Source: Albibacterium bauzanense (GTDB lineage: Bacteria > Bacteroidota > Bacteroidia > Sphingobacteriales > Sphingobacteriaceae). From it: a stretch of 64,000 nt of DNA. Where the stretch lies: the NCBI RefSeq assembly GCF_004339765.1, contig NZ_SMGO01000002.1, positions 1,028,001 to 1,092,000 on the forward strand, given 5' to 3'. Position 1 is the first letter of the stretch. Each line of letters starts with the position of its first letter. This document shows, piece after piece, positions 2,283 to 5,449 of this stretch. The notes below the pieces were generated by a model. The model made no database searches. It was not told the DNA's origin and saw only the letters and a program-made list of their open reading frames with translations. Both the position numbers and the translations under genes were made by a program.

Positions 2283-3626
2283 ATGGAAAAAAGAATTACA
2301 ACCAATAATGAAACACCAATTGTTGTAGGACTTGATATTGGCACTACAAAAATCTGTGTTACGGTTGGCAGACGTAGTGGAACCAATAAGATTGAAGTTT
2401 TAGGTGTTGGTTATGCCGAATCTTCAGGAGTTAATAGGGGCATGGTTGCTAATATTCAAAAGACGGTTTCCAGCATTACACAGGCCGTTGAAGCGGCTAG
2501 TGTTCAATCGAATGTGAATATAAATATTGTTCATGTTGGAATTGCCGGTCAGCATATCAAAAGCTTGCAGCATCGCGGGATATTGACCAGAAAGGATGAT
2601 ACTGAAATAAACCGCAAAGACATTGAGCAGCTTGTTGAAGACATGTATAAATTAGTATTACCTCCAGGTGAAGAAATTATCCATGTTTTACCTCAAGAGT
2701 TTACGATTGACAATGAGCCAGGAATTAAAGATCCTATTGGTATGGCAGGTAGAAGGATGGAAGCCAATTTTCATATCATATCTGGTCATGTAAGTGCTGT
2801 AAAGAATATTCAGAAATGTGTTGCTAAAGCCAATCTTGAAGCTCAAGAACTTATATTAGAACCTCTTGCATCGTCAGAGGCTGTTTTGGATGAAGCAGAG
2901 AAAGATGCTGGTGTGGTGCTCGTTGATATTGGTGGCGGTACAACAGATGTAGCGATCTTCCATGAAGGAATTATTCGGCATACTGCAGTAATTCCTTTAG
3001 GTGGGAATATTGTAACAGAAGATGTTAAACAAGGCTGTTCTGTTCTAAGAAACCAAGCAGAGCTTTTAAAGATCAGATTTGGATCAGCTCTGGCTGATGA
3101 AAATCGCGATAATGAGATTATAAGTGTTCCTGGTTTAAGAGGAAGAGATCATAAAGAAATTTCAGTAAAGAATCTTGCTTACATTATTCAAGCAAGAATG
3201 GAAGAGATCATCGAGCATGTTTACTATGAAATTAAATCGTCTGGGTATGAACGTAAATTAATTGGAGGAATCGTAATCACTGGTGGCGGTGCACAATTAA
3301 AACACTTGGTTCAACTGGTTGAATATGTAACGGGATTGGATTGCCGTATAGGTTTTCCAAATGAGCATTTGGCCAAAAATGAAGAATTACCAAAGAAGGT
3401 TTTTGATGAACTAAAGAGCCCGCTTTATGCTACTGGAATTGGATTGTTAATTAAAGGGATTGAAGCTGCAGAATACAATGCAGATTCAAAAGAAAAACCT
3501 GGTAAATTGGATGTGGTGGGTATATCTGAAAGGGGACGTTCTCGTTTCGGTTTTTTAGATCGTATAGTTAAATTTATCAGTGATGATAGCAATGTAAACG
3601 TGGATGATAAGGAGTATACCAAGTAA
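2283..3626 (+). CDS. ftsA: Cell division protein FtsA
   Basis: FtsA is an actin-fold ATPase that anchors FtsZ polymers to the inner membrane. The sequence shows the phosphate-1 motif VGLDIGTTKICVTVG (about 15-29), the phosphate-2 motif VDIGGGTTDVAIF (about 218-230) and the adenosine motif IVITGGGAQLK. The end carries a likely amphipathic membrane-targeting helix (FGFLDRIVKFISD) and a short acidic tail. Length 447 aa is normal for Bacteroidetes. It starts 7 bp after ftsQ and is followed, after a repeat-containing gap, by ftsZ. Confidence 0.96.
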   Translation: MEKRITTNNETPIVVGLDIGTTKICVTVGRRSGTNKIEVLGVGYAESSGVNRGMVANIQKTVSSITQAVEAASVQSNVNINIVHVGIAGQHIKSLQHRGILTRKDDTEINRKDIEQLVEDMYKLVLPPGEEIIHVLPQEFTIDNEPGIKDPIGMAGRRMEANFHIISGHVSAVKNIQKCVAKANLEAQELILEPLASSEAVLDEAEKDAGVVLVDIGGGTTDVAIFHEGIIRHTAVIPLGGNIVTEDVKQGCSVLRNQAELLKIRFGSALADENRDNEIISVPGLRGRDHKEISVKNLAYIIQARMEEIIEHVYYEIKSSGYERKLIGGIVITGGGAQLKHLVQLVEYVTGLDCRIGFPNEHLAKNEELPKKVFDELKSPLYATGIGLLIKGIEAAEYNADSKEKPGKLDVVGISERGRSRFGFLDRIVKFISDDSNVNVDDKEYTK

Positions 3627-3686
3627 TTTTCCACATTTGCCAATTTTTCCACAGTTTGAACATTTGTGGAAAACATTTGTGGAAAA
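3627..3686. repeat. Four TTTTCCACA motifs (DnaA-box-like) in the ftsA-ftsZ gap
   Basis: TTTTCCACA occurs at 3627-3635 and 3645-3653, and its reverse complement TGTGGAAAA at 3665-3673 and 3678-3686. The last two lie in an exact 13-bp tandem repeat (CATTTGTGGAAAA twice, 3661-3686). The middle pair forms an inverted repeat with an 11-nt spacer. The first copy starts right after the ftsA stop codon. The motif differs from the standard DnaA box TTATCCACA at one position. Binding of DnaA, MraZ or another regulator is inference; the middle pair could also fold as a hairpin in the mRNA. Confidence 0.75.
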
Positions 3687-3763
3687 ACCTTATTATTACA
3701 TTAGAATAATTGAATAAAATAATAATATTTATATCGCTCAGCAAGAGTTAAATAAGGATTGAT

Positions 3764-5449
3764 ATGGCAGAATTAAAATTCGAAATGATCAAAGAGCAAT
3801 CATCGATTATAAAAGTAATTGGTGTTGGAGGTGGAGGTGGTAACGCTGTTAACCATATGTATAAGCAAGGAATTAGTGGTGTGGATTTCATAATCTGTAA
3901 TACAGATGCGCAAGCTCTTGAGTTAAGTCCGATACCTAATAAAGTTCAATTAGGTACCAGTTTAACAGAAGGTATGGGTGCTGGTTCTGATCCTGATGTG
4001 GGTGAAAACTCTGCTATAGAAAGTATTGAAGATATTAAGCGCATGCTGGGCGTTAATACTAAGATGTTGTTTATTACTGCTGGAATGGGTGGTGGTACAG
4101 GAACAGGAGCGAGTCCGGTTTTAGCGAAGGCTGCAAGAGAGTTGGGTATTTTAACAGTTGCGATTGTTACCACTCCTTTTACTTTTGAAGGTAAGAGAAG
4201 ACGTTTGCAAGCTGAAGAAGGTTTATCCGAATTGAAGAAATATGTTGATTCGTATCTGGTTATTTCAAATGATCGTTTGAGAGAGATTTTTGGTAACTTA
4301 ACAATGGGTGCTGCATTTGCAAAGGCCGATGATATTTTAACAACAGCAGCCAAGGGTATTGCTGAAATTATTACAATACCTGGTTATGTGAATGTTGATT
4401 TTAAAGATGTTAAAACTGTAATGAATGATAGTGGAGTAGCTATCATGGGTAGTGATAAAGCTGAGGGCGAGGATCGTGCGCAGAAAGCCGTTGAGGGAGC
4501 TTTGGCTTCACCTTTATTAAAAGATAATGAGATAGAAGGTGCTCGTTATATTTTATTGAATATTACTTCTGGTAAGAAAGAAGTAACAATGGATGAAGTG
4601 ACTATTATTACCGATTATATTCAAAGCCAGGCAGGAATGACTGCTGATCTTATTTGGGGTAATTGTGTGGACGAGTCGTTGGAAGATCATTTGTCTGTAA
4701 CAATTATTGCAACAGGGTTTCAGACTTCAGAGGATCGGATAAAAGAAAAAGAAAATCAGCGTGTTGAGATTCCTTTTGAGGAAACACCTTTAGTTCGTCC
4801 GGTTAATCAAATGAATCCAGTATCTCAGCTGCAAGAAATAAAAGATCAGAAGAATGTAGAGGTTGAAACAACGGCTGAGAAACAGGAAACTGTAAAGGTT
4901 CAACCTATTGATCTGTTTAGCACGTTTTCAAAAAAATCAAATAATCCAAAAGCTGAGTATGAAGCTAAGGAACCAATAGTTCGTCATACTCTGATTGAGG
5001 AAGAAGAAGTAGTAGAGGAAGAGGAGTTAAATGTTAAAGATGAGTATGTTTTAAAGGAAAGTGAATCAGAGTTTCACTTTAAACTTACTGATGAATATGC
5101 TTCGGAAGAAAGAGTAATATTTGACAAACAAGATGATTCATATTCTGGTGCATCGCCTGATGTGCCTGTTTCTAACCCTGATGCTAATCGTACCGAAGAG
5201 TCTGTAGAAGAACAGTTGAGAAAAGCAAAAGAGCGTATTTTGCGCCTTAGGGATTTGGGTATTAAGCTTAGGTCTGCAAGTGGTTTACAAGAGATTGAAA
5301 GCGAACCTGCCTTTCGTCGTAAACAAATGTCATTGGATAATGTAGTGCATTCGTCAGAATCACATGTTTCAAGATTTACACTTTCAAAAGATGATGAAGA
5401 GGGTGGCATAAGACCTAATAATAGTTTCTTACATGACAATGTAGATTAG
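3764..5449 (+). CDS. ftsZ: Cell division protein FtsZ
   Basis: FtsZ is the tubulin-like GTPase that forms the division ring. The GTP-binding core is clear: VGGGGGNAVNHM (about 21-32), NTDAQAL, and the tubulin signature GGGTGTGA (109-116). The core ends near residue 325. It is followed by a long acidic, low-complexity linker (about 330-510). The tail has a PAFRRKQ peptide, the likely site that binds FtsA, then the ending RPNNSFLHDNVD that I recognise from Bacteroidetes FtsZ. At 561 aa it is much longer than proteobacterial FtsZ, because of the linker. Confidence 0.97.
   Translation: MAELKFEMIKEQSSIIKVIGVGGGGGNAVNHMYKQGISGVDFIICNTDAQALELSPIPNKVQLGTSLTEGMGAGSDPDVGENSAIESIEDIKRMLGVNTKMLFITAGMGGGTGTGASPVLAKAARELGILTVAIVTTPFTFEGKRRRLQAEEGLSELKKYVDSYLVISNDRLREIFGNLTMGAAFAKADDILTTAAKGIAEIITIPGYVNVDFKDVKTVMNDSGVAIMGSDKAEGEDRAQKAVEGALASPLLKDNEIEGARYILLNITSGKKEVTMDEVTIITDYIQSQAGMTADLIWGNCVDESLEDHLSVTIIATGFQTSEDRIKEKENQRVEIPFEETPLVRPVNQMNPVSQLQEIKDQKNVEVETTAEKQETVKVQPIDLFSTFSKKSNNPKAEYEAKEPIVRHTLIEEEEVVEEEELNVKDEYVLKESESEFHFKLTDEYASEERVIFDKQDDSYSGASPDVPVSNPDANRTEESVEEQLRKAKERILRLRDLGIKLRSASGLQEIESEPAFRRKQMSLDNVVHSSESHVSRFTLSKDDEEGGIRPNNSFLHDNVD

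Follow-up and report, generated by a model that had tools for sequence, protein, structure and literature searches.

How the initiation of chromosome replication is coordinated with division is a long-standing question. The gap between ftsA and ftsZ of Albibacterium bauzanense, in which several copies of one 9-mer lie close together, raises it for a member of the Bacteroidota: what are these copies, which protein would read them, and could they tie transcription of ftsZ to replication?

A cluster of boxes between ftsA and ftsZ

Within the window (i.e., the whole 64-kb stretch of DNA that was analysed and searched), TTTTCCACA occurs at four places only. As the preliminary description had stated, these four exact copies fall within 60 bp directly 3' of the ftsA stop codon, two on each strand, and include an exact 13-bp tandem repeat, CATTTGTGGAAAA, at 3661-3673 and 3674-3686. 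The stop codon occupies 3624-3626, so box 1 begins at the very next base, and boxes 2 and 4 are perfect inverted repeats. Two parts of the locus had been overlooked in that description, namely box 3, which is weak in A. bauzanense and of the AACA type in most relatives, and a conserved TATTATTAC element at 3691-3699. The features are, in order:

2283..3626, plus strand: ftsA, an open reading frame identified from dcw gene order and its sequence
3627..3635, plus strand: DnaA-type box 1, TTTTCCACA; TTTTC[AC]ACA or TTATC[AC]ACA in most relatives, adjoining the ftsA stop codon or a few bases 3' of it
3645..3653, plus strand: DnaA-type box 2, TTTTCCACA
3654..3662, plus strand: degenerate box 3, GTTTGAACA, abutting box 2; close to TTNTNAACA in most relatives, by comparison with which it was recognized
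3665..3673, minus strand: DnaA-type box 4, TTTTCCACA; most relatives have a C after it
3678..3686, minus strand: DnaA-type box 5, TTTTCCACA, forming a 13-bp tandem with box 4; most relatives have TTTTNMACA here
3691..3699, plus strand: TATTATTAC element (TAnnWTTAC), putative ftsZ core-promoter element, 4-5 bp after box 5
3764..5449, plus strand: ftsZ, the presumed target, an open reading frame with homologues in 60 of 60 relatives

This clustering is indeed far beyond chance, since the genome-wide density of TTTTCCACA predicts some 2e-9 such groups (four copies in 60 bp). The genome (3.08 Mb, six contigs) holds 37 copies compared with 60 of the reversed control word, and the motif is thus not common, which removes one objection that the preliminary description had raised against itself. 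Among 28 inspected copies outside the ftsA-ftsZ gap, four were intergenic, including one before mraZ. The sole other cluster of three TTWTNMACA words in 80 bp, found in the ~586 kb of the A. bauzanense genome that were scanned, is loose and made of mixed words. TTATCCACA is absent from the 64-kb window.

Conservation of the array in the Sphingobacteriaceae

Absence of the cluster from the same gap in close relatives would have spoken against a function; comparison of these gaps found it present. At least three TTWTNMACA boxes occur in 25 of 30 family ftsA-ftsZ gaps, which were fetched via FtsZ homology without use of the motif, and in these 30 gaps TTWTNCACA was counted 68 times (1.2 in shuffled sequences) and TTTTC[AC]ACA 70 times (0.5 in shuffled sequences). 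The usual order, read 5' to 3', is TTTTC[AC]ACA beside the ftsA stop codon, ~9 bp, TTTTCCACA, the abutting weak TTNTNAACA, 2 bp, TGTGGAAAAC, 3 bp, TGTKNAAAA, 4-5 bp, and TAnnWTTAC. The boxes vary mainly at positions 3, 5, and 6, giving TTWTNMACA, with the invariance at some other positions partly imposed by the extraction rule, which fixed them.

When 84,980 species genomes were scanned for the core pattern, at least 80 loci matched, and all those listed lie in an ftsA-ftsZ gap with one match each (75 with both genes placed and five with one of the two). The listed matches belong to Pedobacter, Parapedobacter, Olivibacter, Mucilaginibacter, Arcticibacter, Daejeonella, Desertivirga, Sphingobacterium, and metagenome-assembled genomes of the group. 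The strict pattern was present in 59 of 151 sampled family genomes and 13 of 25 genera, and looser forms extend more widely (e.g., boxes 1 and 2 are kept in G005, G029, and G008), while among 198 genomes sampled across the phylum all matches are in the family and none is in another family. The array, whose full layout is five sites in fixed order before TAnnWTTAC, is kept in most genera examined of the Sphingobacteriaceae. Some small-genome members and genera have no array (L056, L058, L059, L182, L184, L186, and L187); several array-less members still have the mraZ box described below, and two (L056 and L182) have lost the array and retained the TAnnWTTAC element as ACGTAATATTACGT. Separately, many Pedobacter-type relatives (L253-L331) carry a single AAAGTG[TC], resembling an MraZ half-site, between box 5 and TAnnWTTAC, which is absent in A. 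bauzanense.

A probable replication origin in the nadA-nadB gap

We newly identify a gap between two genes, which we take to be nadA and nadB, as the probable chromosomal oriC of the family, with a presumed mnmG within ~6 kb (gene names follow from sequence and established knowledge):

C2:419209-419676, A. bauzanense, outside the window: nadA-nadB gap, probable oriC, containing DnaA boxes and a conserved stretch resembling GTTTATTAGTGTGTTAGT; relatives L222-L241

The gap is 0.4-0.6 kb long, AT-rich, and found in 21 family genomes. Compared with shuffled sequences, these gaps are enriched in TTWTNCACA (22 vs 2.6), TTATCCACA (8 vs 0.1), TTTTCCACA (3 vs 0.2), and TTTTCAACA (4 vs 0.7), and their TTWTNMACA sites comprise TTATTAACA (9), TTATCCACA (8), TTTTCAACA (4), TTTTCCACA (3), and others. 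The A. bauzanense gap itself has near matches and no exact TTWTNMACA; the boxes are found in the gaps of its relatives. Cumulative GC skew, computed from sampled stretches of the genomes, reaches its minimum at ~C2:415-420 kb in A. bauzanense and at the corresponding locus of a sister species (G001). The A. bauzanense dnaA gene lies far from this gap, at C2:812 kb. For the Sphingobacteriaceae, a probable oriC and a DnaA-box consensus are thus by-products of this analysis.

DnaA as the probable reader of the boxes

We consider it probable (roughly 75%) that DnaA boxes, four strong and one weak, make up an array over the ftsZ promoter region, with binding by DnaA predicted from sequence comparison. 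DnaA had been proposed as a candidate before, and it is now the best supported one: the box variants match sites at the family oriC and upstream of dnaA, and the same gap carries them in relatives. In the ftsZ gaps, words that fit the DnaA box of this lineage occur in clusters, with the same TTWTNMACA spectrum as in the nadA-nadB gap. Upstream of dnaA in A. bauzanense, G001, and a further relative (G017), TTAT[TCA]AACA stands close to the gene and TGTTAATAA farther up; a box of the same type before dnaA reads TTATNAACA, and the dnaA upstream region of G029 has TTATCCACA. Domain IV of A. bauzanense DnaA can be aligned to its E. coli counterpart in 1J1V, the structure of that domain in complex with a DnaA box, and keeps GGRDHSTV. 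Moreover, TTTTCCACA is an established cyanobacterial DnaA box, with binding by DnaA and footprints in vitro (PMC4674748). Taken together, the spectrum at oriC and upstream of dnaA, the cyanobacterial box, and the domain IV alignment make DnaA the most economical reader, although an A at position 6 (TTWTNAACA) deviates from the classical TTWTNCACA consensus and counts against it.

The mraZ promoter and a possible role of MraZ

The preliminary description had also named an MraZ-like repressor, and the head of the dcw cluster bears on this suggestion:

C2:1017766-1017810, A. bauzanense, outside the window: mraZ promoter with a DnaA-type box and three GTGG-type MraZ repeats; relatives L192-L218

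All 21 family mraZ upstream regions extracted have one TGT[GT]NAWAA box (mostly TGT[GT]GAAAAC) 13-15 bp before a GTGG triplet of 10-bp period, and several other families of the class have the same word at mraZ in the opposite orientation. AAAGTG is the published MraZ repeat unit of Mollicutes, by comparison with which the GTGG triplet would be the MraZ operator. That MraZ, or some unknown dcw regulator, owns the TTTTC[AC]ACA word with DnaA uninvolved is unlikely in our view, even though the word is present at both dcw promoters and the AAAGTG half-site seen in many relatives resembles the Mollicutes repeat. At mraZ the MraZ repeats, GTGG units recurring every 10 bp, stand apart from the DnaA-type box, whereas no direct GTGG/AAAGTG repeats of 10-bp period were found in the ftsZ gap, where the copies are inverted and the period is 13 bp. 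Nor would MraZ account for the occurrence of this word family before dnaA or for its enrichment at oriC. An MraZ-like repressor at the array is hence disfavoured.

Other explanations of the array

Even if DnaA binds, the array might act on replication rather than on ftsZ, as a datA/DARS-like locus for DnaA sequestration or nucleotide exchange. Dense, precisely spaced, and inverted boxes, and the rarity of similar clusters in the stretches of the genome that were sampled, would suit such a locus; we nevertheless judge it improbable, as the array always stands beside the ftsZ start, 4-5 bp from TAnnWTTAC, and its distance from oriC differs strongly (~610 kb in A. bauzanense and ~1.7 Mb in G017).

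Far less probable still is that the array is itself the chromosomal origin, with its boxes next to a trio-like TTATTATTA element, even though the layout fits the loose published pattern for origin unwinding, i.e., a box, a short spacer, and at least three.A. triplets (PMC8287927). No GC-skew switch occurs at ftsZ in A. bauzanense, G001, or G017, and in A. bauzanense the skew is positive on both sides of the gene. The array is not oriC, because the probable oriC lies ~610 kb away at the skew minimum, a place shared with the sister species and holding the conserved nadA-nadB gap with its DnaA boxes near mnmG; TAnnWTTAC also persists where the boxes are lost (L056 and L182). The candidate (boxes plus triplet-like TTATTATTAC) was accordingly ruled out by GC skew and the nadA-nadB origin. 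G017 has its nadA-nadB gap at 11.7 kb and its ftsZ at 1.73 Mb; as its sampled skew turns from minus to plus twice (near 0 and near 1.84 Mb), this genome taken alone is ambiguous. The double switch (stretches L092-L131) suggests a large rearrangement. We also set aside a palindrome of G001, TTATCCACACTTTTGTGTGGATAA at C1:564591, which resembles a terminator hairpin and lies ~90 kb from the skew minimum of that genome; a box cluster in G017 (L112, 5452-5493), TTTTCCACA-N9-TTATACACA-N6-TGTGGAAAA, is related to it.

The processing hairpin entertained in the preliminary description, or an equivalent terminator, is hardly credible despite the perfect inverted repeats of boxes 2 and 4, as changes in the stem across 24 sequences break 15 pairs and compensate two, a terminator-type T-run is missing, and boxes 1 and 5 obey the same word rules.

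Predicted regulation of ftsZ and mraZ

Returning to an array of DnaA boxes, we infer that it probably links transcription of ftsZ (and mraZ) to the initiator cycle. TAnnWTTAC, which lies 4-5 bp from box 5 in relatives, also precedes mraZ as TAnnTTTAC, and persists where the boxes are lost, is read as the putative ftsZ core promoter. It is barely enriched upstream of genes generally, where the enriched form is TAnnTTTG, which makes it a doubtful candidate for a general -7 box. DnaA would bind the inverted box pairs cooperatively and cover the DNA just upstream of this core promoter, so that ftsZ transcription, with start site and timing as predicted here, may track active DnaA, through either its level or its nucleotide state. 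If TAnnWTTAC is the core promoter, DnaA on boxes 4 and 5 would mask its upstream half, the likeliest outcome being repression of the kind seen at E. coli mioC. Because these boxes lie within ~30 bp upstream of the putative -7 element, we lean slightly toward repression relieved around replication initiation over activation, the mode known from Caulobacter, in which DnaA activates ftsZ via a promoter with two DnaA boxes (PMC3193534). mraZ has one similar box ahead of its MraZ repeats, through which the same signal may also reach the start of the dcw cluster.

A more tentative proposal, which we find possible without yet favouring it, is a two-point DnaA circuit on the dcw cluster, made of a box beside the MraZ operator and a cooperative five-site array at which ftsZ would be a direct read-out of active DnaA. 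Under such a circuit, the mraZ box, shared with other families of the class, would be the older part and the ftsZ array derived within the family. If true, this would be a built-in link between replication and division in the Bacteroidota.

Comparison with known systems

Searches of the Bacteroidota/Bacteroidetes literature on DnaA boxes and ftsZ, MraZ and dcw, and oriC and nadB, which covered few subscription papers, found no report. Among systems from other organisms, the cyanobacterial DnaA box is the same 9-mer, TTTTCCACA, bound by DnaA domain IV in vitro (PMC4674748), but it sits at oriC, whereas the Sphingobacteriaceae copies are in a promoter region and in another phylum. The box clusters of oriC and BUS (PMC8287927) likewise have tandem boxes beside an AT-rich triplet stretch; unlike them, the ftsZ array lies off the skew minimum, with the probable oriC elsewhere. 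The E. coli mioC promoter has two repressing DnaA boxes and an MraZ site that overlaps a DnaA box (PMC4446571), and resembles the Sphingobacteriaceae loci both in DnaA-box repression released by initiation, as predicted for ftsZ, and in a DnaA box near an MraZ site, as before mraZ. However, mioC adjoins oriC and is no dcw cluster gene, and the ftsZ array differs on both counts.

The closest parallel is the Caulobacter crescentus ftsZ promoter, where DnaA boxes likewise place a division gene under the initiator (PMC3193534). Caulobacter is an Alphaproteobacterium with two boxes and activation by DnaA, whereas the Sphingobacteriaceae, within the Bacteroidota, have four strong boxes and one weak box in a fixed inverted layout with predicted binding. 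Control of ftsZ through DnaA boxes is already known from Caulobacter; the present case differs in phylum, in the five-site layout and its place, in the conservation of that layout across a family, and in the box shared with mraZ. A fixed five-site array at ftsZ together with a box at mraZ offers a concrete link that is testable by mutation.
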